Positions 29,964 through 57,029 of a stretch of 64,000 bases of DNA are shown here, piece by piece; the stretch's first letter is position 1, and each line of letters starts with the position of its first letter. Origin of the DNA: Terebella lapidaria (Eukaryota; Annelida; Polychaeta; Terebellida; Terebellidae); contig OX424563.1 in assembly GCA_949152475.1 (NCBI GenBank), positions 8,281,001 to 8,345,000 of the forward strand, read 5' to 3'. The position numbers were made by a program, and so were the translations under genes. The notes under the pieces were generated by a model. It made no database searches. It was not told the DNA's origin and saw only the letters and a list, made by a program, of their open reading frames with translations.

Positions 29964-30474
29964 CCATAGGTGACATGTGCGTAAAAAATGTCTATGTCTT
30001 TTCCAGCAAAAAGCTAGCACGTTCGAACCTGGAAGCATTTAACACTATCACGTTCGCACGTGGAAACTTCAGGAGCTACCACATTCGCACGTGCAAAGAT
30101 TTGGGTGTAGTGGCATCAAATGCTTTCACGTGTGAACGTGGTAGCTTCGAATCTTCTACGTGTGAACGTGGAAACCTACATCTTTCTACGTTTGAATGTG
30201 ATAGGTTTTAAAGTTTCTACGTGAGAACGTGAAAGCATATATTGTTTCCACGTGTGAACGTGGTAGCTTCGGACTTTCTACGTGTGAACGTGGAAGCCTA
30301 AAACCTTTCTGCGTGCGAACGTGATAAGTTTTAAACTTACCACGTGCGAACGTGATAGCGCTAAATGCTTCCACGTGCGAACGTGGTAGCTTTGAACTTT
30401 CTACGTTCGAACGTGCAAGATTTTTACTAGAAAAAACTCCAAATTGTTTTCCCGCATATGTCACCTGTGAAATG
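29964..30474. mobile_element. Foldback element enclosing a CACGTG-rich array
   Basis: The outer 60-65 bp on each side are inverted repeats: GGTGACATGTGCG, TTTTCCAGCAAAAAGCTAGC and CACGTTCGAAC on the left; their complements (GTTCGAACGTGCAAG, TTTTTACTAGAAAAAAC, GCATATGTCACC) on the right. Between them lie about 11 units of 30-37 bp built on CACGTG.GAACGTG. The units face inward from both sides, with a switch near 30,110. E-box-like CACGTG and CGTGTGAACGTG words recur. Translations of opposite strands give similar peptides, as expected of an inverted repeat. The left edge of the 7,338-bp tandem duplication falls inside this array. Confidence 0.7.
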
Positions 30475-30640
30475 TATGCATCAACCTATTACTACCCAAT
30501 ACAATCAGGTTTTGATGATTCGAAAAACAAATTTAATACAAACTGTTGGGACAAAAACAAGCCCGACCAAATATTTGTATTCAATGTATGTATACAGGTG
30601 TGTCAGGCAGCTTTACCAATCTCCCATGGATGTGGAACAA
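30475..30640 (-). mobile_element. Decayed MITE-like repeat, reversed
   Basis: A diverged family member: GTATGCATCAACCTATTACT, CAGGTTTTGATGATTCGAAA and AACAAGCCCGACCAAAT are recognisable, then it fades into CAGGTGTGTCAGGCAG. It begins exactly at the right end of the CACGTG foldback element. The same copy appears at 37,813-37,978 in the second tandem unit. Confidence 0.5.
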
Positions 30641-30954
30641 TGCAGAACTTCGAATGTTGCGAGTATTGTCATAAGCACTATTCTACTTATTGTTAAATTT
30701 CATGCAAGGAAAACATTGGAAATACAAGGTTTGACAATTATTTCGGACTGAAATTCATTGTTTGGGCAAAATGCTAACTTGTGATTTTATTAAACGATGC
30801 TCATTACGTTTCGGTAGTTACTAATTTATTTCCATTGTGCAAATATGCTTCTGTTTTACATTGTTTTATGAACAAACAGTATGTCAATACAACGCACCAC
30901 AACATCTATTTGGTACGTTGTACTGATATATTTAATCTCACTTACCATTATGAT

Positions 30955-33310
30955 ATATGCTTGAGGAGGGCGAATATTTAATTTCCTGTACGTGGCTGTT
31001 AACATTCACAAGGTATGAAGACATGTCAGCACACAATAGAGATTTTCACATCAATTTCCGATTGCTTGTAATTTTTATCTCGAGGGGAAATCTCCTTTTA
31101 CATGTAAGATTCAATAGCGAATTTCCCGTTATTTATTTTCACCTGGAATAAACTGATGGGTGGAATTACCACTTAATATCCCGCGCGAAACTTATAATGA
31201 CTTTTTTAATGAAAATCTATATTAAGTGATATACTTAATGAATATATAGGATATTTCTTGAATTATGCATTATGAGTAGGACATTATCATATTACTCATA
31301 TATCCAACTGAAAGAAGTATATTGTATAAGAGATCGGCTTACAATGTACAGTCATGCATCTATTCAGCATGAGGCTAACTCATGGTATTTATTTTTTTTA
31401 CGTTTGTGTATACTTGTTGTGGTATTTTATTATTGTTGTTATTTTCATTAGTTATACTGGCTTATGGTCTGGTTATGTCTTTCCATGTGAAATTGCCCAC
31501 TCTAGCTGCATGGAAGAACATTGTCGAGTTTTCACTGCAACCTCAAGTGTGTGACGTTGAATGTCAACGTTTCTCTTAGTTTGGGACGAAATAACGTGTG
31601 AATTCAAAGCAACAAAAATATGGGATAATGTACAGCTCGGATGGTTGTAGCTGGTATATGATGGCCGTATCATAGCAATGGAACAAAAAATATCATATTA
31701 TGAACCCCCACCTGCCTTTCCTATTTAATATTATGCACCATATAAGTAATTGCGAAAGGAATGATGTCTCATTTCTCCGAATGAAATGGCATCAATAAAT
31801 GGATGTTAACGTAGTGATTGCGAAATAATATGCATATTAGAGCAGGGATTTGGTCTCAACACCGGGGGTTATGGTACTATCAGGGTCAGGTGAAACAATG
31901 TGACCAGCAGGGTCAGGTCAAGCACAAAGTCTAAGCTGGCGTGGTTTAAGCATAATACCGCATTTCTCCCAGGATGCAGAGAGCGGATGCACTTTTAAAT
32001 TTTGTCTACATGATGAATGTTCGTGGACAAGAAACAGGTAAGAGCTGACAGTGTGCTATCATTAGCAATGCCATTCATTGCATGTAGGATCCATGTCAAG
32101 ATCAATGTGAAATTCACATTTTATATTGAGCTGTTGATTCGTTTGTGTTATTTGACCGAAAATCAAACACACTTCAATGAAACGGGAGAGGGAGAGAAAA
32201 TATCCATCAATACCATCCTCTGGATTATTATGGGATAATTACACAAAAAGCAATATATTTATCAAAGTCTGATATGGTGACACGCACACAATGTGTTGCC
32301 AATCAGAGACAAAACCGACTGACATGAATCAGCTAAAATTGCTGATTGGTTAATCTATTTTGCGAAAGAAACTATCAATAGACATAGAAATGGAGGCAAA
32401 TATGCAATATGCGTCCATCCAATAATACTCTTATATTGCAACCAGATAATAATAAACAAAATGACCTTGTACCATTATTGTTGCTGGTTTTGTCGTTCTG
32501 GTTTTATGCTGTTATTCAGTGCTCAGTGGGTGATAACTACGTCAACAAGCTTCTGTTTTCTGAATATTGATTGTCACGCCAGGTTCTGAGCATATATTAA
32601 GAACTATAATACACTGACATTATATATTTCATATTTCCTAACACTAATATAACACTGATGGGTCCTAACAAACGTGACTATTGGTATCATTTTTCAAATC
32701 AACTGTAGGTGGATACAATAGGATATCCATGCGTCATGTAGTCATGTTGCTTAATTGAAACCAATGGCGTCACATTATATCTCCTCTTATTCCATCCCCC
32801 ATGTGACCATTTCCCCAGTTACTGTCAAAACGTTTGTCGTGTGAATATAATACCAGTGATTGTCGTTTCTAAGCATTTGATACTTTCATATACGTGTGGC
32901 AAAACAGCCTTGAGTTTTGTCGGAACTTGTATATGGACATATGCAGATTGCACTTGCAGAGATGTATGATGTCAACAATAAATTACAGTTAATGTCTCGT
33001 CTTACCTCATGCAATACATTATAAATGATTTGCTTGAATCATGCGTTTTCTGAATGCTAATGTGGAGATGAAAACCTTCCATTCAATTTGTGTAATTTCA
33101 TATTGGTTTTGTGTTCATGTTAAGGAAGAGTTGAGTAAAATAGTTATAGATACATGTAGAATTATCACAAATATCACACTCAAATTCCCCTTACGAGTAT
33201 TGATCGAGCATTTATATTCGTGCCATTTCTGTTCTGAACCCATTCGTTGGTGATCCCAAGCAGAATGCCGGAATGGATATTTATCCTTCAAATCAAACAT
33301 TGTATGAGAT
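30955..33310 (+). repeat. Ancient segment F2, copy in tandem unit 1
   Basis: Aligns in order with 57,030-62,330. Anchors: 30,963 GAGGGCGAATATTTAATTTC against 57,028 GAGGGCGAGTTTCAATTTCC; 31,045-31,150, where the short frame HINFRLLVIF ending FHLE and a stop parallels YINFRLPVIV ending FHLG and a stop; 32,028-32,180, with the conserved donor-like ACAGGTAAGAGCTGAC; 32,480-32,590 with GTGGGTGATAACTAC; and 33,040-33,245 with TTCTGAATGCTAA and TCTGAACCCATTC. The late part also aligns with reversed 18,165-18,695. The product is unknown; conserved frames and donor-like sites make a decayed duplicated gene plausible. Confidence 0.65.
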
Positions 33311-33597
33311 TACCTGCTATTGTCAACAAAAATATCGATAAATCAGTCATAATTTGGTGTTTCAATTATGCCTACCTCGTTCATTGCAACTGTAGACACC
33401 CTAGTAGAATGAAGACACCTGATACACATATTCAAATGTTCGATTGGCGTTCCAATGTGGATTGGCGTTGATACAGAAGACTGACTGACATTTTGTTGAC
33501 AATAGCAGCGGTCCAGAAACTGAAACAAATTGAATAACCAGCTTTCAGTGACGCGAAATTCAGCCAATATTATGCAATACAAACACATTTCAAATTT

Positions 33598-33912
33598 ACG
33601 GAAGCGTATTACCGCCATGCAAAAAATTTTTTTTATCTCGCCGTGGCGAGTTACTATCTCGCCGTGGCGAGTTAGTATCTCGCCGTGGCGAGTTAGCTAT
33701 CTCGCCGTGGCGAGTTACTATCTCGCCGTGGCGAGTTACTATCTCGCCATGGCGAGTTACTATCTTGCCGTGGCGAGTTAGCTATCTTGCCGTGGCGAGT
33801 TACTATCTTGCCGTGGCGAGTTAGCTATCTCGCCCAGGCGAGTTACTATCTCGCCGTGGCGAGTTACTATCTCGCCGTGGCGAGTTACTATCTTGCCGTG
33901 GCGAGTTACTAT
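33598..33912 (+). repeat. Array of 13 short palindromes, unit 1
   Basis: After a flank GGAAGCGTATTACCGCCATG and an A/T-run spacer, 13 units of 20-22 bp follow. Each is CTCGCCGTGGCGAG, a palindrome with 6-bp arms around GT, spaced by TTACTAT, TTAGTAT or TTAGCTAT. A few units vary (CTTGCC, CATGG, CCAGG). Each unit could form a small cruciform or RNA hairpin. An inverted copy with the same flank occurs at 46,026-46,285, which marks this as the end of a mobile family and not a local satellite. The array is translatable (SPWRVS, LAVASY), a by-product of its period. Confidence 0.85.
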
Positions 33913-34417
33913 TCTGTCTTCAATAGCATCGTGACGTAGCCCCCAAGGTCATCTGAGATTAATTTCAAGGTTACCAAAAAATGAGCCCTTCACATAATTG
34001 TGACTTCCTACATGTTTAGCATATGAACCCATAATACGAACTTATAAAAGTTTCTCAAGGGTATCTTATGGCCAATCTGTGCAATTTGGTGTAGCTATAA
34101 CTTTTATCCGAGCACTCGAGGTCTGCTGGAGTCAAGTCCATGTTCATCAGAAAATGCACCACACATTAAATTGAATATATTTAGGAAAGGATAGGATAAA
34201 TAGCTATCCTGTTCTAACCCTGATTCTATTAATACAAATCCAGCCTCTATCATGAAGCATTCAGCGTTCAGGCGAGAGTTTTTATAAAGTGGTCATCTCG
34301 GGCCAATAATGGACGGAATTGACCGTACAATATAACGTGAACTGGAAATAGGTTCTGGGTAGAACGTTTTACGGTTGTTTGAGCTTATACATATATGAAA
34401 CCTCAACAGTTTCATTT
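33913..34417. other. Unassigned stretch between arrays
   Basis: Contains TCAAGGTTACC-like words but no tandem units. No gene or RNA was recognised. The matching stretch in the second tandem unit is 41,251-41,755. Confidence 0.4.
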
Positions 34418-34785
34418 AAAACCTTTTTGAAAGGTTCTTTGTGTGGAACCTTTTTCACGGAACCTCAAAGGTTCTTTGTAAAGAAAATTTGGAATTATGA
34501 GATGAGGTTTTTGTAAAGGTTCAACCCGGGTTCTTTCACAACCAGTGAATTGAAGCTTTTGGGGGTACTTCAAGGTACCATCAAATCACGTTTAGGTTCT
34601 TTGAAGAACTCTCCCTGATTCGAATATGTTTCCATAAAAAAAATCAGTTCCATATTGACCCATTTCAGGTTCTTTGCAGGTTAGGTAAAGAACCTCCAAG
34701 TGGTTCAATATTTGTTCACTCCAAAGTACTCAAGTTTCTAAATAGAACATTTCAGGTTCTTCAGAGAACCTTTCAATTGTTATCA
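34418..34785 (+). repeat. AGGTTCTTT / AAAGAACCT palindrome cluster
   Basis: About a dozen copies of GGTTCTTT or AAAGAACC (and close variants such as AACCTTTTT, GAAAGGTTC and GAAGAACTC) occur in about 370 bp on both strands. Examples: GAAAGGTTCTTTGTG (34,429), CAAAGGTTCTTTGTAAAG (34,466), AGGTTCTTTGAAGAAC (34,593) and GGTAAAGAACCTCC (34,684). Spacing is irregular, so this is not a simple tandem repeat. The pattern may be a foldback element built of small palindromes. Duplicated at 41,756-42,123. Confidence 0.65.
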
Positions 34786-34867
34786 AAAGAATATCCTATG
34801 GTCCAAAATAAGTTGTTTGAAACACATCAATTTCATATTGAACCTTCGAAAGCTCTATAGTTAAAAA

Positions 34868-35600
34868 AGTAGGTGTGGCGATTTTGCCCTAAGCACGCGG
34901 CAGGTGATTGTAAACATAAAAGCCATTTATGTGGCCTTTTCGTACTTGGCCTTGTTTTGACACGCTCGGTTCGAGCGTGCGTTGCCACGGCGACGCATTG
35001 TAATTTACGCTCCAGTAAACTATAACAATGGATCAATTAGACCTCGCGTGCGCCCTACAGCTTGTGGTGTATTATATATACACTGGAAGCGACTCGATCG
35101 AGGAGATTGTCCGAGAGAGAGTGACTAGGACGCACACGAGGCTCGCCATGAGCTTTGTGTTCCCTGGTTCTGAGTAGAGGGCTCCTAGAGCCCTGGGGAC
35201 GATTTCCATGGGGAGGCCCGGGCTGGGAGAGACAAGTTGCTGACTCGGGGGCGTACGCCCTGTGGATCGCCAGTTCTCTCCCTTCCCGGGACGTGTGACA
35301 TAGGCTCTGGCCAGCATGTCGGACTGTACGGGGTTCCGTCCCCGAGGCAGACCGCGGCTCGCCAGGCCCCGCCAGTTAACACCGTAGGGATGAACTAGTT
35401 TCTGAACGGTGTCCGTAGGCCTGGGAGTGTCGGGTGGGCTGTTACCTGGTTACCGTTAATGCTGAAGTAGTTACCGTGTCCGCAGCGACCTCCGGTGAGC
35501 GGCCCTGCCGCAAGGATCCGGAATAGCGGATGCGCGTCCGCAAGGACTCGGATGAGAGAGGACTATCCTCGAGGATCCCGAAGAGCGGACGGTAGTCAAT
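34868..35600 (+). other. GC-rich, CpG-containing block
   Basis: A sharp rise in GC and CpG content against AT-rich surroundings. The left part (34,873-35,030) resembles 47,477-47,620: GTGGCGATTTTGCCC, GCAGGTGATT.TAAAC-like and a CACGCTCGGTTCGAGCGTGC palindrome here, against GTGGCGATTTTGCCCAAAG and CTTCGTGTTCGAAGCACGTG there. Both run up to an ACAATGG start-like site. The right part (35,510-35,600) has repeated CCGCAAGGA, GAGGATC and AGCGGA words. It may be the 5' region of an unclassified DNA transposon or an old promoter. Confidence 0.5.
35028..35177 (+). CDS. Small hypothetical frame in the GC-rich block
   Basis: A 49-codon frame starting MDQLDLACALQLVVYYIYTG and ending TRLAMSFVFPGSE. It has an acidic, leucine-rich start followed by an arginine-rich stretch (RERVTRTRTR). 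The ACAATGG start context and position just after a CpG-rich upstream block make translation conceivable. The pattern loosely recalls the N-terminus of Harbinger-type nuclease proteins (short acidic-leucine start, then an Arg-rich run), but no catalytic motif follows, so the family is not established. It may be a truncated transposase start or chance. Confidence 0.25.
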   Translation: MDQLDLACALQLVVYYIYTGSDSIEEIVRERVTRTHTRLAMSFVFPGSE

Positions 35601-35744
35601 AACTTTACATAGGTGTATATTTATTTATATGCATAAATCGGGAAAATACTCTGAGTCAAAAACTTTTCACTCCATTCATGTAAAATGAACCTTATAAGAA
35701 ACTTATGAGTCCAAACTAGGAGGTAATAAGTCCAAATAAGTCCG

Positions 35745-35905
35745 ACTTGGGACACTGCTGAGACCAACGAAGACCTTATCCAGCCTGGGAACGTGGGAGA
35801 GCCTACAGGGGACAATGCTGACACAAATGAAAACCTTATCCAGCCTGGGGGGCATGGCAGAGGCTACAGGGGACACTGCCGAGACAAATGAAGGACATAT
35901 TTCAC
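35745..35905 (+). repeat. 61-bp tandem repeat, 2.6 units
   Basis: Units begin GGGACACTGCTGAGAC (35,748), GGGACAATGCTGACAC (35,809) and GGGACACTGCCGAGAC (35,870). Each carries CTTATCCAGCCTGGG and GAG.CTACAGGG, the last only in part. The units are about 80-85% alike. It lies just left of an AGGTCA element. Duplicated at 43,083-43,243. Confidence 0.75.
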
Positions 35906-35930
35906 TAATTCCTTCGGCCATACAAAAAAA

Positions 35931-37084
35931 TTAGCCCAAGGGCTAAGAAAGGTTACCGGACAATACATATTTCAGATATTAGTATTTTGTACCGTGACCT
36001 CGAAAATAAGGTCATTGGCCAATTCAAGGACACAATAATATTCAGCATATGTCATTTCTAGTATGTCCACAATTGATTCCTAAGCTGTAACGTTAATAAT
36101 AAACGAAATATTAGCCATATGTCCTGTGACCTTGAAAATTAGGTCAAAGGTTAAGTTCAAGGTCATGACAATGTTCAGAATATATCATTTTCTATATGTC
36201 CACAATTGATTGTGAAGCTGTAAAGTCGATAAAAAGCGAGATATCAGCCATTTCGTTCTATGACCTTGCGAATGAGGTCAAAGGTCAAATTCAAGGTCAT
36301 AGCAATATTCAGCATACGATGTATATCATTTCCTATATGTTCATAATCGATTCCTAAGCTGTAAAGTTGATAATAAGCGAGATATTAGCCATTTTGTCCT
36401 GTGACCTTGAAAATGAGGTCAAAGGTCAAAATCAACGTCATCAGAATTTTCGGCATATATCATTCCTATATGTCCACAATTAATTCCTAAGCTGTAAGGT
36501 CGATATTAAGCGCGATATTAGACATTTTGTGCTCTGACCTTGAAACCGAGGTCAGAGGTCGAATTCAAGGTCACGAGAATATTCCGCATATATCATTTCC
36601 TATATGTCCACAATTGATTCCTAGTCTCTAATCTCAATATTAAGTGAGATATTAGGTATAATATGTCCCATTATAAAGCATAGGAGAATTTAACATGGAA
36701 AAGTCCCATTTGGGCCAAATTTGGGCCAAATTGGCCCACTTCGAGCGATTCAAGCGCAACGAAATTTATAGACATCATAGGAATACATATGAGGAGTGTT
36801 ATGTATCAAAAAGAGAAAAAGTTACTGAACAGATTTTAATAAAATGGCCGCCAAAGTCCAAAATTAAGCATTTTTTGTCCAAAACGGCCGCCATTTTGAA
36901 AAAAAATTGCGAAAATCAAAAAACTAAAAAATACCTCCCTCTCGAAATATTTTTAGGCCTTTTTGTGCAAAATTTGAGAAAAGAACGATCGCAAACTTTA
37001 AAGATAAAATTGTTGACGGACGGACGCCGGACGCCGGACGCAACGCCATGGCAATAGGTTATCGGACCATAGGTCCGGTAACCT
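35931..37084 (-). mobile_element. AGGTCA-rich tandem element, copy 2
   Basis: Reverse orientation relative to 12,983-14,239. It opens with the hairpin TTAGCCCAAGGGCTAA and GGTTACCGGAC, carries about five 133-bp units (AGGTCAAAGGTCA with AAATTCAAGGTCA near 36,270 and 36,412), then the CATTTT/GGCCGCC words, a GGACGCCGGACG stretch, and closes with GGTTATCGGACC, ATAG, GTCCGGTAACC. It looks whole from end hairpin to palindromic head. No protein is encoded. Its start is inside the tandem unit, so an identical copy lies at 43,269-44,422. Confidence 0.75.
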
Positions 37085-37442
37085 AACAATGATAAGAAGC
37101 CCAAATTCAAGTCTCCATAGCTCCGTCCCAGAACAATATGAACCGGGCGTCACAGGGAAGAATCCGTTGGATCTTCCCAAGGTTTTCTGGTTGGAGGATG
37201 GCTTCAAGGTTTCCTTGCATCTCATGGACGGACGCCGGACGGACGGACGCCGGACGCAACGCCATGGCAATAGGTTATCGGACCATAGCTCCGGTAACCT
37301 AACAATGATAAGAAGCCCAAATTCAAGTCTCCATAGCTCCGTCCCAGAACAATATGAACCGGGCGTCACAGGGAAGAATCCGTTGGATCTTCCCAAGGTT
37401 TTCTGGTTGGAGGATGGCCTCAAGGTTTCCTTGCATCTCATC
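37016..37442 (+). repeat. 216-bp tandem duplication at the element end
   Basis: The end of the AGGTCA element plus about 150 bp of adjoining sequence is repeated with a 216-bp period. The GGTAACCT junction is at 37,078-37,084 and again near 37,294-37,300. The two repeats are almost identical (GGCTTCAAGG against GGCCTCAAGG; ATAGGTCC against ATAGCTCC). Within the duplication the GGACGGACGCC word is expanded. The adjoining sequence begins the DIRS-type fossil. Also present at 44,354-44,780. Confidence 0.8.
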
Positions 37443-37558
37443 CCGTCCTTCCTAGTAAAAACTCAGCTTGCCTTCTCTCCATCGTTGGCCTTCACGATCC
37501 CTGCCTTGGCTTCGTCCTTAGGCCCGAATCTGATAAAAGACTGTATTCTATGCTCGGT
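37443..37558 (+). mobile_element. DIRS-type recombinase fossil, cut by the duplication
   Basis: Start of a DIRS-like tyrosine recombinase remnant, continuing in full only in the second unit (44,781-45,130). The sequence ends at the tandem duplication junction. A fossil; incomplete. Confidence 0.5.
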
Positions 37559-37812
37559 GTGAGAACGTGAAAGCATATATTGTTTCCACGTGTGAACGTG
37601 GTAGCTTCGGACTTTCTACGTGTGAACGTGGAAGCCTAAAACCTTTCTGCGTGCGAACGTGATAAGTTTTAAACTTACCACGTGCGAACGTGATAGCGCT
37701 AAATGCTTCCACGTGCGAACGTGGTAGCTTTGAACTTTCTACGTTCGAACGTGCAAGATTTTTACTAGAAAAAACTCCAAATTGTTTTCCCGCATATGTC
37801 ACCTGTGAAATG
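37559..37812. mobile_element. CACGTG foldback element, right half only
   Basis: The part of the 29,964-30,474 element right of position 30,221, including the right terminal repeat. The left terminal repeat is absent because the duplication starts inside the array. Confidence 0.75.
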
Positions 37813-37978
37813 TATGCATCAACCTATTACTACCCAATACAATCAGGTTTTGATGATTCGAAAAACAAATTTAATACAAACTGTTGGGACAAAAACAAGC
37901 CCGACCAAATATTTGTATTCAATGTATGTATACAGGTGTGTCAGGCAGCTTTACCAATCTCCCATGGATGTGGAACAA
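37813..37978 (-). mobile_element. Decayed MITE-like repeat, reversed, second unit
   Basis: Identical by eye to 30,475-30,640. Confidence 0.5.
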
Positions 37979-38292
37979 TGCAGAACTTCGAATGTTGCGA
38001 GTATTGTCATAAGCACTATTCTACTTATTGTTAAATTTCATGCAAGGAAAACATTGGAAATACAAGGTTTGACAATTATTTCGGACTGAAATTCATTGTT
38101 TGGGCAAAATGCTAACTTGTGATTTTATTAAACGATGCTCATTACGTTTCGGTAGTTACTAATTTATTTCCATTGTGCAAATATGCTTCTGTTTTACATT
38201 GTTTTATGAACAAACAGTATGTCAATACAACGCACCACAACATCTATTTGGTACGTTGTACTGATATATTTAATCTCACTTACCATTATGAT

Positions 38293-40648
38293 ATATGCTT
38301 GAGGAGGGCGAATATTTAATTTCCTGTACGTGGCTGTTAACATTCACAAGGTATGAAGACATGTCAGCACACAATAGAGATTTTCACATCAATTTCCGAT
38401 TGCTTGTAATTTTTATCTCGAGGGGAAATCTCCTTTTACATGTAAGATTCAATAGCGAATTTCCCGTTATTTATTTTCACCTGGAATAAACTGATGGGTG
38501 GAATTACCACTTAATATCCCGCGCGAAACTTATAATGACTTTTTTAATGAAAATCTATATTAAGTGATATACTTAATGAATATATAGGATATTTCTTGAA
38601 TTATGCATTATGAGTAGGACATTATCATATTACTCATATATCCAACTGAAAGAAGTATATTGTATAAGAGATCGGCTTACAATGTACAGTCATGCATCTA
38701 TTCAGCATGAGGCTAACTCATGGTATTTATTTTTTTTACGTTTGTGTATACTTGTTGTGGTATTTTATTATTGTTGTTATTTTCATTAGTTATACTGGCT
38801 TATGGTCTGGTTATGTCTTTCCATGTGAAATTGCCCACTCTAGCTGCATGGAAGAACATTGTCGAGTTTTCACTGCAACCTCAAGTGTGTGACGTTGAAT
38901 GTCAACGTTTCTCTTAGTTTGGGACGAAATAACGTGTGAATTCAAAGCAACAAAAATATGGGATAATGTACAGCTCGGATGGTTGTAGCTGGTATATGAT
39001 GGCCGTATCATAGCAATGGAACAAAAAATATCATATTATGAACCCCCACCTGCCTTTCCTATTTAATATTATGCACCATATAAGTAATTGCGAAAGGAAT
39101 GATGTCTCATTTCTCCGAATGAAATGGCATCAATAAATGGATGTTAACGTAGTGATTGCGAAATAATATGCATATTAGAGCAGGGATTTGGTCTCAACAC
39201 CGGGGGTTATGGTACTATCAGGGTCAGGTGAAACAATGTGACCAGCAGGGTCAGGTCAAGCACAAAGTCTAAGCTGGCGTGGTTTAAGCATAATACCGCA
39301 TTTCTCCCAGGATGCAGAGAGCGGATGCACTTTTAAATTTTGTCTACATGATGAATGTTCGTGGACAAGAAACAGGTAAGAGCTGACAGTGTGCTATCAT
39401 TAGCAATGCCATTCATTGCATGTAGGATCCATGTCAAGATCAATGTGAAATTCACATTTTATATTGAGCTGTTGATTCGTTTGTGTTATTTGACCGAAAA
39501 TCAAACACACTTCAATGAAACGGGAGAGGGAGAGAAAATATCCATCAATACCATCCTCTGGATTATTATGGGATAATTACACAAAAAGCAATATATTTAT
39601 CAAAGTCTGATATGGTGACACGCACACAATGTGTTGCCAATCAGAGACAAAACCGACTGACATGAATCAGCTAAAATTGCTGATTGGTTAATCTATTTTG
39701 CGAAAGAAACTATCAATAGACATAGAAATGGAGGCAAATATGCAATATGCGTCCATCCAATAATACTCTTATATTGCAACCAGATAATAATAAACAAAAT
39801 GACCTTGTACCATTATTGTTGCTGGTTTTGTCGTTCTGGTTTTATGCTGTTATTCAGTGCTCAGTGGGTGATAACTACGTCAACAAGCTTCTGTTTTCTG
39901 AATATTGATTGTCACGCCAGGTTCTGAGCATATATTAAGAACTATAATACACTGACATTATATATTTCATATTTCCTAACACTAATATAACACTGATGGG
40001 TCCTAACAAACGTGACTATTGGTATCATTTTTCAAATCAACTGTAGGTGGATACAATAGGATATCCATGCGTCATGTAGTCATGTTGCTTAATTGAAACC
40101 AATGGCGTCACATTATATCTCCTCTTATTCCATCCCCCATGTGACCATTTCCCCAGTTACTGTCAAAACGTTTGTCGTGTGAATATAATACCAGTGATTG
40201 TCGTTTCTAAGCATTTGATACTTTCATATACGTGTGGCAAAACAGCCTTGAGTTTTGTCGGAACTTGTATATGGACATATGCAGATTGCACTTGCAGAGA
40301 TGTATGATGTCAACAATAAATTACAGTTAATGTCTCGTCTTACCTCATGCAATACATTATAAATGATTTGCTTGAATCATGCGTTTTCTGAATGCTAATG
40401 TGGAGATGAAAACCTTCCATTCAATTTGTGTAATTTCATATTGGTTTTGTGTTCATGTTAAGGAAGAGTTGAGTAAAATAGTTATAGATACATGTAGAAT
40501 TATCACAAATATCACACTCAAATTCCCCTTACGAGTATTGATCGAGCATTTATATTCGTGCCATTTCTGTTCTGAACCCATTCGTTGGTGATCCCAAGCA
40601 GAATGCCGGAATGGATATTTATCCTTCAAATCAAACATTGTATGAGAT
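38293..40648 (+). repeat. Ancient segment F2, copy in tandem unit 2
   Basis: Same as 30,955-33,310, with no difference seen. Confidence 0.65.
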
Positions 40649-40935
40649 TACCTGCTATTGTCAACAAAAATATCGATAAATCAGTCATAATTTGGTGTTT
40701 CAATTATGCCTACCTCGTTCATTGCAACTGTAGACACCCTAGTAGAATGAAGACACCTGATACACATATTCAAATGTTCGATTGGCGTTCCAATGTGGAT
40801 TGGCGTTGATACAGAAGACTGACTGACATTTTGTTGACAATAGCAGCGGTCCAGAAACTGAAACAAATTGAATAACCAGCTTTCAGTGACGCGAAATTCA
40901 GCCAATATTATGCAATACAAACACATTTCAAATTT

Positions 40936-41250
40936 ACGGAAGCGTATTACCGCCATGCAAAAAATTTTTTTTATCTCGCCGTGGCGAGTTACTATCTCGC
41001 CGTGGCGAGTTAGTATCTCGCCGTGGCGAGTTAGCTATCTCGCCGTGGCGAGTTACTATCTCGCCGTGGCGAGTTACTATCTCGCCATGGCGAGTTACTA
41101 TCTTGCCGTGGCGAGTTAGCTATCTTGCCGTGGCGAGTTACTATCTTGCCGTGGCGAGTTAGCTATCTCGCCGTGGCGAGTTACTATCTCGCCGTGGCGA
41201 GTTACTATCTCGCCGTGGCGAGTTACTATCTTGCCGTGGCGAGTTACTAT
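40936..41250 (+). repeat. Array of 13 short palindromes, unit 2
   Basis: Same as 33,598-33,912 except that the tenth palindrome has the array consensus CCGTGG (41,173-41,174) where unit 1 has CCCAGG. The variant therefore arose in unit 1, or unit 2 was corrected to consensus. Confidence 0.85.
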
Positions 41251-41755
41251 TCTGTCTTCAATAGCATCGTGACGTAGCCCCCAAGGTCATCTGAGATTAA
41301 TTTCAAGGTTACCAAAAAATGAGCCCTTCACATAATTGTGACTTCCTACATGTTTAGCATATGAACCCATAATACGAACTTATAAAAGTTTCTCAAGGGT
41401 ATCTTATGGCCAATCTGTGCAATTTGGTGTAGCTATAACTTTTATCCGAGCACTCGAGGTCTGCTGGAGTCAAGTCCATGTTCATCAGAAAATGCACCAC
41501 ACATTAAATTGAATATATTTAGGAAAGGATAGGATAAATAGCTATCCTGTTCTAACCCTGATTCTATTAATACAAATCCAGCCTCTATCATGAAGCATTC
41601 AGCGTTCAGGCGAGAGTTTTTATAAAGTGGTCATCTCGGGCCAATAATGGACGGAATTGACCGTACAATATAACGTGAACTGGAAATAGGTTCTGGGTAG
41701 AACGTTTTACGGTTGTTTGAGCTTATACATATATGAAACCTCAACAGTTTCATTT

Positions 41756-42123
41756 AAAACCTTTTTGAAAGGTTCTTTGTGTGGAACCTTTTTCACGGAA
41801 CCTCAAAGGTTCTTTGTAAAGAAAATTTGGAATTATGAGATGAGGTTTTTGTAAAGGTTCAACCCGGGTTCTTTCACAACCAGTGAATTGAAGCTTTTGG
41901 GGGTACTTCAAGGTACCATCAAATCACGTTTAGGTTCTTTGAAGAACTCTCCCTGATTCGAATATGTTTCCATAAAAAAAATCAGTTCCATATTGACCCA
42001 TTTCAGGTTCTTTGCAGGTTAGGTAAAGAACCTCCAAGTGGTTCAATATTTGTTCACTCCAAAGTACTCAAGTTTCTAAATAGAACATTTCAGGTTCTTC
42101 AGAGAACCTTTCAATTGTTATCA
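41756..42123 (+). repeat. AGGTTCTTT palindrome cluster, second unit
   Basis: Same as 34,418-34,785. Confidence 0.65.
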
Positions 42124-42205
42124 AAAGAATATCCTATGGTCCAAAATAAGTTGTTTGAAACACATCAATTTCATATTGAACCTTCGAAAGCTCTATAGTT
42201 AAAAA

Positions 42206-42938
42206 AGTAGGTGTGGCGATTTTGCCCTAAGCACGCGGCAGGTGATTGTAAACATAAAAGCCATTTATGTGGCCTTTTCGTACTTGGCCTTGTTTTGACA
42301 CGCTCGGTTCGAGCGTGCGTTGCCACGGCGACGCATTGTAATTTACGCTCCAGTAAACTATAACAATGGATCAATTAGACCTCGCGTGCGCCCTACAGCT
42401 TGTGGTGTATTATATATACACTGGAAGCGACTCGATCGAGGAGATTGTCCGAGAGAGAGTGACTAGGACGCACACGAGGCTCGCCATGAGCTTTGTGTTC
42501 CCTGGTTCTGAGTAGAGGGCTCCTAGAGCCCTGGGGACGATTTCCATGGGGAGGCCCGGGCTGGGAGAGACAAGTTGCTGACTCGGGGGCGTACGCCCTG
42601 TGGATCGCCAGTTCTCTCCCTTCCCGGGACGTGTGACATAGGCTCTGGCCAGCATGTCGGACTGTACGGGGTTCCGTCCCCGAGGCAGACCGCGGCTCGC
42701 CAGGCCCCGCCAGTTAACACCGTAGGGATGAACTAGTTTCTGAACGGTGTCCGTAGGCCTGGGAGTGTCGGGTGGGCTGTTACCTGGTTACCGTTAATGC
42801 TGAAGTAGTTACCGTGTCCGCAGCGACCTCCGGTGAGCGGCCCTGCCGCAAGGATCCGGAATAGCGGATGCGCGTCCGCAAGGACTCGGATGAGAGAGGA
42901 CTATCCTCGAGGATCCCGAAGAGCGGACGGTAGTCAAT
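42206..42938 (+). other. GC-rich block, second unit
   Basis: Same as 34,868-35,600, including the small frame (see 42,366). Confidence 0.5.
42366..42515 (+). CDS. Small hypothetical frame, second unit
   Basis: Identical 49-codon frame to 35,028-35,177; the same reservations apply. Confidence 0.25.
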   Translation: MDQLDLACALQLVVYYIYTGSDSIEEIVRERVTRTHTRLAMSFVFPGSE

Positions 42939-43082
42939 AACTTTACATAGGTGTATATTTATTTATATGCATAAATCGGGAAAATACTCTGAGTCAAAAA
43001 CTTTTCACTCCATTCATGTAAAATGAACCTTATAAGAAACTTATGAGTCCAAACTAGGAGGTAATAAGTCCAAATAAGTCCG

Positions 43083-43243
43083 ACTTGGGACACTGCTGAG
43101 ACCAACGAAGACCTTATCCAGCCTGGGAACGTGGGAGAGCCTACAGGGGACAATGCTGACACAAATGAAAACCTTATCCAGCCTGGGGGGCATGGCAGAG
43201 GCTACAGGGGACACTGCCGAGACAAATGAAGGACATATTTCAC
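43083..43243 (+). repeat. 61-bp tandem repeat, second unit
   Basis: Same as 35,745-35,905. Confidence 0.75.
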
Positions 43244-43268
43244 TAATTCCTTCGGCCATACAAAAAAA

Positions 43269-44422
43269 TTAGCCCAAGGGCTAAGAAAGGTTACCGGACA
43301 ATACATATTTCAGATATTAGTATTTTGTACCGTGACCTCGAAAATAAGGTCATTGGCCAATTCAAGGACACAATAATATTCAGCATATGTCATTTCTAGT
43401 ATGTCCACAATTGATTCCTAAGCTGTAACGTTAATAATAAACGAAATATTAGCCATATGTCCTGTGACCTTGAAAATTAGGTCAAAGGTTAAGTTCAAGG
43501 TCATGACAATGTTCAGAATATATCATTTTCTATATGTCCACAATTGATTGTGAAGCTGTAAAGTCGATAAAAAGCGAGATATCAGCCATTTCGTTCTATG
43601 ACCTTGCGAATGAGGTCAAAGGTCAAATTCAAGGTCATAGCAATATTCAGCATACAATGTATATCATTTCCTATATGTTCATAATCGATTCCTAAGCTGT
43701 AAAGTTGATAATAAGCGAGATATTAGCCATTTTGTCCTGTGACCTTGAAAATGAGGTCAAAGGTCAAAATCAACGTCATCAGAATTTTCGGCATATATCA
43801 TTCCTATATGTCCACAATTAATTCCTAAGCTGTAAGGTCGATATTAAGCGCGATATTAGACATTTTGTGCTCTGACCTTGAAACCGAGGTCAGAGGTCGA
43901 ATTCAAGGTCACGAGAATATTCCGCATATATCATTTCCTATATGTCCACAATTGATTCCTAGTCTCTAATCTCAATATTAAGTGAGATATTAGGTATAAT
44001 ATGTCCCATTATAAAGCATAGGAGAATTTAACATGGAAAAGTCCCATTTGGGCCAAATTTGGGCCAAATTGGCCCACTTCGAGCGATTCAAGCGCAACGA
44101 AATTTATAGACATCATAGGAATACATATGAGGAGTGTTATGTATCAAAAAGAGAAAAAGTTACTGAACAGATTTTAATAAAATGGCCGCCAAAGTCCAAA
44201 ATTAAGCATTTTTTGTCCAAAACGGCCGCCATTTTGAAAAAAAATTGCGAAAATCAAAAAACTAAAAAATACCTCCCTCTCGAAATATTTTTAGGCCTTT
44301 TTGTGCAAAATTTGAGAAAAGAACGATCGCAAACTTTAAAGATAAAATTGTTGACGGACGGACGCCGGACGCCGGACGCAACGCCATGGCAATAGGTTAT
44401 CGGACCATAGGTCCGGTAACCT
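43269..44422 (-). mobile_element. AGGTCA-rich tandem element, copy 3
   Basis: Same as 35,931-37,084 except for A instead of G at 43,656. Confidence 0.75.
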
Positions 44423-44780
44423 AACAATGATAAGAAGCCCAAATTCAAGTCTCCATAGCTCCGTCCCAGAACAATATGAACCGGGCGTCACAGGGAAGAA
44501 TCCGTTGGATCTTCCCAAGGTTTTCTGGTTGGAGGATGGCTTCAAGGTTTCCTTGCATCTCATGGACGGACGCCGGACGGACGGACGCCGGACGCAACGC
44601 CATGGCAATAGGTTATCGGACCATAGCTCCGGTAACCTAACAATGATAAGAAGCCCAAATTCAAGTCTCCATAGCTCCGTCCCAGAACAATATGAACCGG
44701 GCGTCACAGGGAAGAATCCGTTGGATCTTCCCAAGGTTTTCTGGTTGGAGGATGGCCTCAAGGTTTCCTTGCATCTCATC
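44354..44780 (+). repeat. 216-bp tandem duplication, second unit
   Basis: Same as 37,016-37,442. Its presence in both units shows the 216-bp event came before the 7.3-kb event. Confidence 0.8.
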
Positions 44781-45130
44781 CCGTCCTTCCTAGTAAAAAC
44801 TCAGCTTGCCTTCTCTCCATCGTTGGCCTTCACGATCCCTGCCTTGGCTTCGTCCTTAGGCCCGAATCTGATAAAAGACTGTATTCTATGCTCGGTGTGG
44901 GTTTTGCGCTTGTTACTTAAGTGAACAAGAAATCTGTTTGTGAACAAAAAAACGTCTGCTGTTCATATCGCATCAGTCAATATTCCACCGAGACATACGT
45001 TCGCTTCCTATTCGTCCTGGATTCAAAAGTGTATCCAAATTTGTTATGACCTGGCCAAGCAGGACTCCACTTGTTCGTTTGAGGTAAGTGCCCATGACGT
45101 TAGAGCCATGGCGGCTTCCCTATATGGGAT
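44740..45130 (+). mobile_element. DIRS-type tyrosine recombinase fossil
   Basis: Remnant of the tyrosine recombinase gene of a DIRS-like retrotransposon. Two blocks are recognisable. The first, 44,770-44,900, has FTIPALASSLGP and a following block of the form seen before the middle of these recombinases. The second, around 44,985-45,120, has RHTFASYSSWI and AHDVRAMAAS, the conserved HxxR region of the catalytic domain. DIRS elements integrate with such recombinases instead of an integrase. The copy is a fragment and is broken; no reverse transcriptase or terminal repeat was found beside it. The ancestral copy was interrupted at its 5' side by the AGGTCA element end. Confidence 0.6.
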
Positions 45131-46020
45131 GTGTTCCTCTCGATCAAGTGATGTTGATGGCAATCCCATAACACCTTTACCTCTTTCTACCGTAGGGACT
45201 AGATATGGACGAGATGTGAGGGTTACCACCTCAAGCCCGTGGTAGCCGTGCACGGTGTCGTCACCCTGTGAGGTGGATGTGGCCCACCTGATATACGTTG
45301 CGTTCACTTGTACATATGTTGCTGTTCCACGGTTTCGAGTTAAGGTTCGTTAGGGAACCCACTGGAACCTGTTTTTCTAAGAGTGAATAATATCTATCTT
45401 GCTGTGCAGAAAAGTCGCAGTTTTCATCAGAGCGACATTGTGAAAGCTGCCACTAGAAATGAGATGCATAAATATCAGTGACCTGGAAAGAATACTCATG
45501 ATTTAGTGATCCAGTACTGAGTTAGTGGCACACATGTAATTTGAGTGCATGAATGGCGTATCTCATTCCAACGAAAAGACATTTTGAACGTAATTCGTGG
45601 ATGAGATTTCGCATTATACTCTATAATTATCTCAAACACACACTTTGGGAGGGGGAGTCGATATTCGACATTGTCGTCGAGTTACTTCTTTTCTCCATCC
45701 ACATAGATCTAACATATTCAATATTTCTGGAAAACGTGTCCAGGCATTGCTCAACCAACTCGTTCACAATCCCAGCGATTCAATGGAAATTGTCATCCCT
45801 AGAGCGCATACAGGCCATGCGTGTCAAGAGGGTTGATTTTATCATCATTTCATCATCAACTCATTAGACAAAATCGATAGGTACATACATCAAATGCGTA
45901 TGCAACAATCATCAAAATCGTATGAGAAATGGGACCTGTAGAACGCTCTACACAAATTTATTTGGGGTGGAGTGAATCCATAGTATCTGCCGACCTACGT
46001 TTGAGGAATACAATGACACA
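45131..46020. other. Flank of the DIRS fossil, otherwise unassigned
   Basis: 45,131-45,370 may be the downstream part of the DIRS-like element. The open frames at 45,553-45,867 overlap in different frames and show no domain. Confidence 0.35.
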
Positions 46021-46025
46021 CCGAC

Positions 46026-46285
46026 GACGAGTTAGTAACTCGCCACGGCAAGATAGTAACTCGCCACGGCGAGATAGCTAACTCGCCACGGCGAGATAGT
46101 TACTCGCCACGGCGAGATGGTAACTCGCCACGGCGAGATAGCTAACTCGCCACGGCGAGATAGTAACTCGCCACGGCAAGATAGCTAACTCGCCACAGCG
46201 AGATAGTAACTCGCCACGGCGAGATAGTAACTCGCCACGGCGAGATAAAAAAAAATTTTGCATGGCGGTAATACGCTTCCGTACA
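46026..46285 (-). repeat. Array of 10 short palindromes, inverted copy
   Basis: Ten CTCGCCACGGCGAG units (the complement of the array at 33.6 kb), then the A/T spacer and the flank CATGGCGGTAATACGCTTCC at 46,262. The flank continues as GTACAAATT here and TAAATTTG in the matching place at 33,590, so homology stops soon after the flank. A shared flank on one side with a variable unit number (10 against 13) is the signature of a mobile element ending in an unstable array. Confidence 0.8.
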
Positions 46286-46329
46286 AATTGACCCATTACT
46301 CTACCAGATTTCATCGACTTTGAATATAA

Positions 46330-46382
46330 CAACTGAACTAGTTTCTAGCAATATGTAACTGAACTAGTTTCTAGCAATATGT
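46330..46382 (+). repeat. 26-bp tandem duplication
   Basis: CTGAACTAGTTTCTAGCAAT occurs twice with a 26-bp period. Confidence 0.8.
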
Positions 46383-46848
46383 ATATATTCAAAATGAATC
46401 TTGCCACTGTCATGAATCTCTACGATGTATATTACACCTGGGTACATAACCATAGCCTACATTTGTGTCCATGAAGCTTCCGTTCACGATAAATTTACAT
46501 TCAACGTTTATGAAATGAAAAGGGAAGTTTAATAAATAATATCGGTAATGTAGTTCACATTGTCCTTGACCTTGTCAATCGACTTCAGCCGGTCCAAACT
46601 TGAACGCAATCATCTAAATAGAAACCCGGACATAAAACACGGCATGAACCGGACTCGAATACAACAGGGCATCACAACAATACCCAGGTTTGCTGGAGGT
46701 GTTAGCCGCCATTTGAAATGCCCAACAAATCAGGATTATGTGAGCGATTATGTCTAATAGTATGTTCTTTAGAGACATTCACCAAAGAACGGGAGTAATT
46801 GCCAACTCTGAGAGGCATTGAAAGGAGAATCCCAATTATCAATCAAAG

Positions 46849-47165
46849 AAAGATGTTTTATTTCCAGATATACACAAGACATGCTGAAATTCAAAATTAG
46901 AATATTTGTTGTAGATCAATATGGGGCACTGGGGCAGACAGTATTCAAATGTAAGTATCAATCAATTACCACCAATACACCTAAGATGTTTTATTTCCAG
47001 ATATACACAAGACATGCTGAAATTCAAAATTAGAATATTTGTTGTAGCTCAATATGGGGCACTGGGGCAGACAGACTTCATATGTAAGTATCAATCAATT
47101 AGCACCAATACACCTAGATTTTGATAATGTCAATAGCAAACGTAAAATACAACATTTTGCTACAG
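46849..47165 (-). mobile_element. MITE-like terminus, duplicated with 133-bp period
   Basis: Two tandem copies (46,851 and 46,984 start AGATGTTTTATTTCCAGATA) each end in GGGGCAGACAG, TGTAAGTATCAATCAATTA and CACCAATACACCTA, the outer end of the MITE family. The second continues into the family body (TTTTGATAATGTCAATAGCA, AAATACAACATTTTGC) to about 47,165. The duplication captures flank plus terminus, so it happened after insertion. Confidence 0.6.
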
Positions 47166-47560
47166 AAATCTAAAGTAACTTTTATGTCGGTCGTTTCATC
47201 AACAAATCTGCGCCTCTTGCATTTGTTTTTGTGGGTGATTAACTGAGCTTTGATCTGGTTGACAGACAATTGTCAGATACGTGTATTTAACATGACAATT
47301 TATTATTAAGGATCATGTATTATTATTGTCTGTGAAAAATGTTAAATTAAGTATGATTCAAATGCTTCATTATGCCTGATATGCTTCAAGTAGGCCTACA
47401 TACTATAACACTGGTGCCATGTACATAAAATGGGACGTGCACGCTTGAAACTAACTTCAGTGAAACCATCAACATATGTGGCGATTTTGCCCAAAGATCA
47501 CGACAGGAGATTTTTTCTAAACACTCTCTTGTTTCTGGTCGCTTCGTGTTCGAAGCACGT
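47166..47560. other. Unassigned, with a GC-block relative at its right
   Basis: 47,477-47,620 resembles the left part of the GC-rich block at 34,873 (see there). The rest has nothing I recognise. Confidence 0.4.
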
Positions 47561-53996: not shown

Positions 53997-54886
53997 AGTA
54001 CTAGTAGCATGCAAATATGAGGTGTACTCATATGAAAGATCTCATTGATCTGAGCAAAATGGTCTTTACGGCATGTCAATATCACTATCTGTTCAAAAGT
54101 TAAAGCCATTTAAACCTACCATTTCGGCACTACATTACAGAAAAGTTTCAGCAAGTCATTATTATGCAAATTAGATGTTAATGAGAAATCATGACGTCAT
54201 GAGGGGAACAAAATTCAATTAGGATTTTTTAGACCATGAAAAAATGATTCTTATTGAAGGTTCTGACGATCTGACTAGTGCATATTGTTATGTATCACAA
54301 ATAGTCAATATCCACACTAACTATCCACACTACTGTTGCTATGGTTACCAGTCTTTCCCTAGAGCCTTAGTTACCCATGGTTGCCATGGCTGTTAAAATG
54401 ACAAGTCAAGCTTGCAGACTTTCTGTCGATTATTTATGAATTAAATCAATATAGTGCTCGAGTCAGCACCGTTTTTATTTTGTGCATACCCTATTATAAG
54501 TGGGTTTCTGGCATTAGCAACCACGGTTGCTAAGGGCGATACGAGGTCACTGGTTGCCTTGACAACAACCTAGAAAGTGAAAACACTGATTATTCATATT
54601 GAACACTGTATGGAATACGTTTTCATGAATTATCATAACACTAAATGAATGAATAATGCATATTAAAGTACCTAATTAAAACAGTTCCCCTGATGACGTC
54701 ATGAATTTCTCATTTGCATACTAATTAGCTAAATGATTTTGAAAAAGCAAATATGCAGAGTTCAATCTTCAAAGTGCTGTAACTTTCGAACGGATTGTGA
54801 TAATTACATGCCGTAAAAACCATTTTGCTCAGATCAATGAAATCTTTCATATAAGCTCATATCATATTTGCACTTCACTAGTACTT
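53997..54886. mobile_element. TTAA-flanked foldback element, 890 bp
   Basis: Flanked by TTAA on both sides (53,993-53,996 and 54,887-54,890), as left by piggyBac-type transposition. Termini are AGTACTAGT and ACTAGTACT. The arms (about 53,997-54,235 and 54,662-54,886) are inverted repeats at roughly 75%: GCAAATATGA, CATATGAAAGAT, CATTGATCTGAGCAAAATGG and a TTTACGGCATGT word. Each arm carries a perfect TGACGTCA (54,192 and 54,694). The centre holds GTTGCTATGGTTACC and AGCAACCACGGTTGCT, close to RFX X-box sites. No transposase, so non-autonomous. Confidence 0.8.
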
Positions 54887-54890
54887 TAAT

Positions 54891-56784
54891 GTTTACACGA
54901 AATGACTCAGTCTCAGTATTAAGTCATTGAGTGTTATTGTGTATTCCAGTAATACTTAATACTTAGGTTTGTCTCTCATGGGACATCCGTTCGATACAAC
55001 ATTATTATTACACTCATAATCATTATTGGAATACATTTCTGAATATCTCAATTCTATTCGAAATGATTTGGGTCAGGGCAGCGAGGAGTACAACGGGGTT
55101 AATTCCAATTTATCTAACTGGAATTTCTTCCCAAGATAATAGCTATCATTGCATATTGATTTTGATTACGCCAATACGCAATCGATATATTTATCCATGT
55201 CACATACACGTCACAATGAAGTTGATGAAATGTGCCACATACTGAGTTCGTGTTAATTTTTACACACGGGAAGCAACTTCACAACATCGAATGCAATTGA
55301 ATTATACATTGCGGTGCATTCAAAAGACTTTCAGTTATCCCCTATTCATTTGAAATTTGTTTGCCATAGTAGGATGAGTGGGTTGTCAATGCAGACATTC
55401 TACTCGTGAAGATCGTGAGTAAATGGTTCAGCTAAACATCGTTCAGTTAAGCATCGTTTAATTCATTGATAGGTACACCTAAAGTCGGCGCATAATTTAT
55501 TGGCGCGAACCTATCTCGTCATATCTCATAATTTTCTGACTTGTATAAATTGAAATTGATAGAAAGTGAAAACGGCACTGTGACCATGATGAATCAATGG
55601 CTGTTTTTCTGTCGTGTGCGTTTCTCATCCGTATATTTAGGAAAATGTATTTCCTTATGGGGTTTCAAAATGCCAATTCTAGCTTGCCATTTTGATGCCG
55701 TATGGATTGAGACAAATCAATGGAACAGCCGATCTGAATAGGGGTCATCTCAAAGAAAATACAATAGTCACAAATGAAAATTTGTTTGCTTACACGTGCT
55801 TTAAAATACTTGCCATTCAAGAAATCACAATCACACAATATCCACTTGAGTTATTCAGGCCGATTCTGATCATACTCCGAACAGTTACGGAAGTTGAAAG
55901 ACAACTTCATGTTTCGTTCGTATATATTATATGAATACATGTATGGTATATCATGGTATATAGGGTACATGTATTTTGGCGCATCTGCCACAGAATATAA
56001 GCCTATGTGCGGTACGTTGAAATTTATTATAATCAATACTATGATCACATTATTATGATCGCTCTTTTGTTTGATTGATCAACAGCGCAATCCAGCACAA
56101 ACATTTTGACATTATTTTCTGAAATCAGGTATGGCATCCTTAAGCAATACTGGGCTGAGCTATATAATTTGACTCAGAGGACTCAAGCCAGGCCAAAGCG
56201 AGCATAGCCGGAGACGATACAAAGTTGGTCAAAAATTAGGCACCCCAAATCCTCAATTCACATATTGCTGAATATTGAATATGTTCATTTGTTTAGCGAT
56301 AACAATATACTGCAAACAAACATAATTTTGTGTCCTATCCTGTCTGTGACATATAGTTTCTCGCCCAAATATACAATATTACGCTCAGCCATTCCGGGAT
56401 ATCAAACTGAGCAGTATCCGTTTCTGAACAGCATAACATCATCACATGTAATTTTTCGGACCGTTGCCCACCACTGGTCAGACCAATGATTTTTCTTTGC
56501 ATTATGAGCTATTGCATTGACATTCACCACTCTTTTGACTGTATGCTTTCCCGCTCGTTGATACAATGGTGAATGTTTAGAATCGTATTTATTGAGATAA
56601 TATTCTTCTGTCTGAAAAACAAACTTCGAATTCACGTCATAGTCTTGTTCAAACGTTGCCTGAATTGCTTATAATACAAGTCTGTAAGTTCCGAGATTTC
56701 ATCAGATATGTTCGCGCCAATATTATGTGCCGACTTTAGCTAGTCCTTGTCGTTCTCTGATAGAGGCCTTGCTAGTATTAATGT
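54891..56784. other. AT-rich stretch, no supported gene
   Basis: Frames are all below 85 codons and overlap on both strands. I see no domain and no convincing repeat match. If F2 continues upstream of 56,785 its partner should be above 22,510 in reverse, but I found no match there. Confidence 0.45.
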
Positions 56785-56910
56785 TCCAGATGTCGAATGC
56801 AGCAATCAGATGATGACCGTCATTTTCGAAGGTTACATGGCGGATGTGATTAGGGGATGACATTGACTTTGAACTCATGCTGACTCTGTGATTATGCATA
56901 CACTCTCTAC
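56785..56910 (+). repeat. Ancient segment F2, early anchor
   Basis: Forward partner of reversed 22,365-22,510 (AATCAGATGATGACCGTCAT, GTTACATGGCGGATGT, TGACTCTGTGATTATG). The reverse frame here reads HIRHVTFENDGHHLIA, similar to YIRHVAFKHGGHHLIA at 22.4 kb. Confidence 0.55.
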
Positions 56911-57029
56911 ATTCAGCCAAACAGGTATCCATGATAAGTTGTATAGACAGATTTGACCAATCAGGATAATATGTATAAGTATTTCACGTTATAGAAACAA
57001 CCAGATTCACCCATCAGGCAAAATTGTGG

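Follow-up and report, generated by a model that had tools for sequence, protein, structure and literature searches.

The 64,000-bp window of the Terebella lapidaria genome analysed here (contig C9:8281001-8345000 of an assembly of 761.6 Mb in 438 contigs) contains what, as read in the assembly, appears to be a real, young and ordinary tandem duplication of a 7,338-bp unit. The two copies, delimited by offset comparison and self-BLAST, occupy positions 30221-37558 and 37559-44896 of the window, to which coordinates refer throughout, and lie head to tail on the plus strand. BLAST aligns 30221-37561 with 37559-44899 at 99.959% identity over 7,341 bp and without a single indel, and self-comparison at an offset of 7,338 leaves three mismatches, namely, C/G at 33835, A/T at 33836 and G/A at 36318. 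These results confirm a sequence-only reading of the same DNA, which had proposed a duplication at this offset with the same three differing bases. Chance cannot explain a repeat of such length.

The copies are adjacent, non-satellite and in the same orientation, and a single novel junction lies between them, as in tandem segmental duplications. A 43-mer across this junction (37537-37579, plus strand) occurs once in the 761.6-Mb assembly, even with up to three mismatches permitted. Similarly, when the initial 3,001 bp of the unit were searched, the two adjacent copies gave the only full matches (best 40 of 1,184 candidates scored), and the other matches listed are shorter than 350 bp and either dispersed or local. 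In all genome-wide scoring, the best candidates only were taken, and the repeat copy counts given below are lower bounds. The unit consists of 3.4 kb of flank and the first 4.0 kb of a transposon: 30221-33596 comprises half of a hairpin-forming repeat and the flank that follows it, and 33597-37558 corresponds to the first 3,962 bp of the transposon. The present-day order is, accordingly, a truncated transposon, a copy of the flank and a complete transposon. The bases GTG at the outer right edge (44897-44899, plus strand) are identical to those at 30221-30223 and 37559-37561.

The right edge, at 44897, lies within the complete transposon (40935-46283; 5,349 bp), which has the termini TACGGAAGC and GCTTCCGTA, the latter at 46283, and is bounded by the target duplication CAAATT. 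The terminus TACGGAAGC is found at both 40935 and 33597, where the truncated transposon (33597-37558), cut by the duplication junction, begins. The element has inverted arms containing 21-bp minisatellites (33590-33857 versus 46291-46024, 92% identity); in the truncated transposon, the minisatellite of the left terminal inverted repeat arm covers 33634-33912, and its counterparts cover 40972-41250 in the second copy and 46024-46247 in the right arm. At an empty site, L003 (C9:8370529; window coordinate 89529, 26 kb beyond the window end), a paralogous place with a single copy of the flank, 32889-33599 is joined to 46284-47423 at 92-93% identity. CAAATT is present once at L003 and twice at the occupied site, which, for the one insertion compared, points to a 6-bp target duplication. 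Position 44897 is crossed by all 39 other copies among the best 40 of 273 candidates (the remaining one is the window itself), 16 of them at 98-99% identity and 23 at 91-94%, and the alignment of one transposon copy, L014, stops exactly at the left end of the element.

IS3EU elements are described as having TA...TA termini and target duplications that are usually 6 bp long (PMC10045372), and given the TA...TA termini and the 6-bp target duplication, we refer to the interrupted transposon as IS3EU-like. With the IS3EU/GingerRoot elements as portrayed in that source it also shares terminal inverted repeats, and differs from them in that the few open reading frames (ORFs) tested here yielded no transposase and in that its terminal arms contain the 21-bp minisatellite (PMC10045372). 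The transposon is probably non-autonomous. Ten ORFs tested against Pfam, including those inside the transposon, yielded no match above the curated cut-offs (the one weak match had an E value of 0.019 and 15.4 bits, against a cut-off of 27), and no search aimed at an autonomous partner was made. By eye, the residues encoded by the open frame 44925-45242 resemble a tyrosine recombinase, and its weak, sub-threshold Pfam match is to a different family. At L014 (C1:88869879-88869910), the end of one IS3EU-like transposon directly meets that of a second copy, and the two share the terminal TA (CTTCCGTACGGAAG); this arrangement, which resembles an end-to-end circle or dimer junction, is the only one found in the assembly when exact ends with a spacer of 0-30 bp were considered.

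The left edge, 30221, also lies within an interspersed repeat. This element (29996-30469, its left end being approximate) is built of inverted arms (30010-30102 versus 30301-30393) of a 31/61-bp minisatellite, and the 31/61-bp array itself spans 30118-30419 and includes the edge. It is strongly hairpin-forming: as single-stranded DNA, the 200 bases around the edge fold far better than their shuffles (z -4.77, 0/200). As with the right edge, all 39 other copies among the best 40 of 811 candidates, the remaining one being the window, cross this position. Because both interrupted repeats are continuous in 39 of the 39 other copies scored for each, it is the outer edges that appear to retain the ancestral arrangement, with the inner junction as the new one. 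Both elements recall Foldback elements, in which inverted arms likewise consist of tandem sub-repeats, a likeness that we take to be one of layout only.

The differences between the copies can be polarised. At 33835-33836, copy 1 has CA and copy 2 has GT, and CA is derived, judging from the one informative locus of seven (L014) and from the minisatellite consensus. At 36318, copy 1 has G, as do six of the six informative loci of seven (L015 has no in-register coverage of this position), and the A at 43656 in copy 2 is derived through a CpG to CpA change; this count omits secondary alignments in which neighbouring repeat units are matched out of register and which have A or a gap there. The differences thus appear to represent about two mutations, one per copy, which argues that the copies are young and supports the option, listed in the sequence-only reading, of a very recent duplication. 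At assumed mutation rates of 2e-9 to 8e-9 per site per generation, the point estimates of its age would be 17,000-68,000 generations, with limits of about 2,000 to 246,000. The unit copies are 99.96% alike, whereas in alignments longer than 1.5 kb the seven other transposon copies (L010-L016) reach at best 99.2% identity, with one 449-bp piece at 99.6%. Consequently, the pair does not represent two independent insertions, and the duplication is likely to be younger than the insertions L010-L016.

We consider it likely that the structure goes back to one recent event, a tandem segmental duplication produced by either microhomology-mediated joining or template switching. Before it, the locus would have carried a single complete IS3EU-like transposon, preceded by the hairpin-forming repeat and some 3.1 kb of additional flank. 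At 30221, within that repeat, a break or perhaps a stalled replication fork would have been connected, via the 3-bp GTG, with a site in the transposon that now lies at 44896/44897. Microhomology-mediated end joining or template switching would thereby have added a head-to-tail copy of 7,338 bp, leaving one transposon copy truncated and one intact, with the second copy of the flank between them; afterwards, each copy of the unit would have gained about one mutation. Identity at the edges does not exceed 3 bp, that is, the long homology between the ancestral edges on which non-allelic homologous recombination depends was not found. Given that the edges share only these 3 bp, an exchange between long homologous sequences does not appear to be the founding event. 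The duplication resembles copy-number variants (CNVs) surveyed in Drosophila, among which microhomology of at least 2 bp is reported at 41% of 644 breakpoints and blunt joining at 35%, the role of homologous exchange is described as negligible and breakpoints are enriched in non-B structures (PMC4056370). Shared features are the head-to-tail copy, the short microhomology without filler bases, the lack of long edge homology and an edge capable of forming a non-B structure. By contrast, our unit is far larger than the survey medians of tens to hundreds of base pairs (PMC4056370), and it was found in one assembly only.

Several points weigh against this scenario. Among 400,000 pairs of breakpoints drawn at random from this window at distances of 4-10 kb, 6.0% have microhomology of at least 3 bp, so blunt joining is possible and GTG, taken alone, is weak evidence and suggestive only. 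The sequence-only reading had regarded GTG at all three edges as fitting microhomology-mediated joining; the motif is indeed present and compatible with this route, but the three occurrences amount to one observation, because any tandem duplication with 3-bp microhomology displays the motif three times. Folding at the left edge was gauged against shuffles alone and not against other parts of such arrays, and the right edge displays no unusual folding (z -1.68, with 12 of 200 shuffles equally good). The scoring of best candidates would under-represent repeat copies that end at either edge. In the Drosophila survey, tandem duplications account for only two of 50 insertions, and its figures come mostly from other events (PMC4056370). 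Furthermore, two mutations translate into a wide range of ages, the scoring of CA/GT as one event is an assumption, and the duplication is known from one assembly sequence alone.

The chief rival to a genuine duplication is an assembly artefact in which a loop, or else a molecule that was chimeric or an extrachromosomal circle, was built into the chromosome, such that the second copy would be absent in reality. The mere three differences across 7.3 kb would fit such an error, and false duplications are reported to persist in newer long-read assemblies, with 61-92% located on the same scaffold (PMC9516828). We nevertheless regard this as unlikely. A 3-bp overlap should not lead an assembler to join two ends, and the junction probably falls within a read; there is no N or gap within 264 kb around the window; and the substitutions polarise to one event per copy, including a CpG transition, a pattern that the re-use of reads would not yield. 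According to the same survey, false duplications are mostly unmerged haplotypes, recognizable by half depth and by gaps between the pair (PMC9516828). A misjoined second haplotype, which the sequence-only reading had already deemed unlikely, is rejected here on the grounds of the novel junction and the near-identity of the copies: a misjoin would not be expected to create a gapless junction between unrelated repeats, and for alleles assumed to be 0.5% apart, the probability of three or fewer differences is about 1e-12.

The near-identity could also reflect an older tandem duplication kept uniform by gene conversion or unequal exchange between the copies, an option that the sequence-only reading had listed alongside recent origin. 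An identity jump along one paralogous pair in the surrounding cluster (from 91-95% at 46-59 kb to 98.7% at 59-69 kb), which suggests conversion or repeated duplication, lends this some plausibility. However, identity between the unit copies is complete to both edges, the nearest difference being 3,614 bp away at the left and 1,240 bp away at the right, whereas conversion tracts are expected to leave diverged ends; both differences, moreover, look like private derived changes, one to each copy. Homogenisation is therefore less likely than youth, and we consider it improbable. Still harder to sustain, and in our view very improbable, is the notion of a tandem insertion in which the unit itself is a mobile element or a circle derived from such an element. 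It does contain most of a transposon, and a transposon pair with directly abutted ends is known from L014 on C1, but the transposon ends at 33597, 40935 and 46283 coincide with neither edge of the unit, and no whole-unit copy was found elsewhere among the scored candidates for its first 3,001 bp.

At a minimum score of 50, seven tandem arrays are listed in the unit, including one that sits within another, in agreement with the seven kinds of repeat counted in the sequence-only reading. Six of these arrays are located inside the transposon, and the seventh belongs to the dispersed repeat at the left edge. All six transposon arrays fall within alignments to other genomic copies of the element. 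The 21-bp array is aligned in L014 and the 61-bp array in L011, and L010 is among the copies that align over the 133-bp and 11-bp arrays; the 216-bp pair, together with the 15-bp array nested in it, is covered by L010 and L016, and the alignments of L011-L015 look as though these copies had a single 216-bp unit. The presence of each array in other transposon copies suggests that the arrays spread with the transposon and that the duplication only carried one set along. The further idea that the unit could be a mechanism for multiplying whole repeat clusters is unsupported: six arrays are parts of an already dispersed transposon and the seventh of a dispersed repeat, with 39 other scored copies of each element, whereas the beginning of the unit has only the two adjacent full copies among the scored candidates and the junction is unique.

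The duplication is embedded in an older nest of local duplications, revealed by self-comparison of 264 kb (C9:8181001-8445000), with matches from about -99 kb to +131 kb relative to the window start, to which the coordinates of the cluster refer. They include 59272-69375 paired with 106547-116675 (98.7%), -88656 to -80235 with -48807 to -40338 (97.1%) and, in several pieces, 46-59 kb with 90-106 kb (91-95%), as well as further pairs down to about 85%; the 7.3-kb pair is the most alike of those longer than 2 kb. For two cluster segments compared with the whole genome, every match above 500 bp falls within the cluster (best 40 of 1,338 and best 40 of 4,395 candidates). Searches with three short flanks from other chromosomes uncovered no second local copy beyond dispersed repeats for L004 and L008, and diverged local repeats (74-92%) on C14 for L005, although these three loci are too few for a base rate of such nests. 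It is conceivable, but we think doubtful, that hairpin-forming, inverted-minisatellite transposons are recurrent fork-stalling sites that seed local tandem duplications, in which case the cluster on C9 would be a self-renewing hotspot and the 7.3-kb pair its latest product.

A 2.17-kb head-to-tail repeat in the same cluster (-68818 to -64489; C9:8212182-8216511; 99.5%), with 10 extra bases at its junction, was considered as an independent event at a corresponding place and rejected, because its edge sequences are different and the region is retroelement-like by eye. Outside the unit, open frames on the minus strand at 56726-56983 and 54550-54675 are possible exons; of their differences from a local paralogue, 8/9 and 6/6, respectively, fall at third codon positions, figures that are uncorrected for the many frames tested. 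Farther downstream, a minus-strand open frame of 511 aa (140821-142353; C9:8421821-8423353) is membrane-receptor-like by eye.

Overall, the duplication most likely reflects a copying accident of a common type whose two cuts both fell within ordinary mobile elements. Its junction, clean and datable, lends itself to the study of how tandem duplications begin in a genome rich in transposons, and the case carries a warning that repeat clusters within such duplications may be mere parts of transposons. If it segregates in the species, the duplication would provide a ready copy-number marker; in other respects, it is an ordinary duplication.

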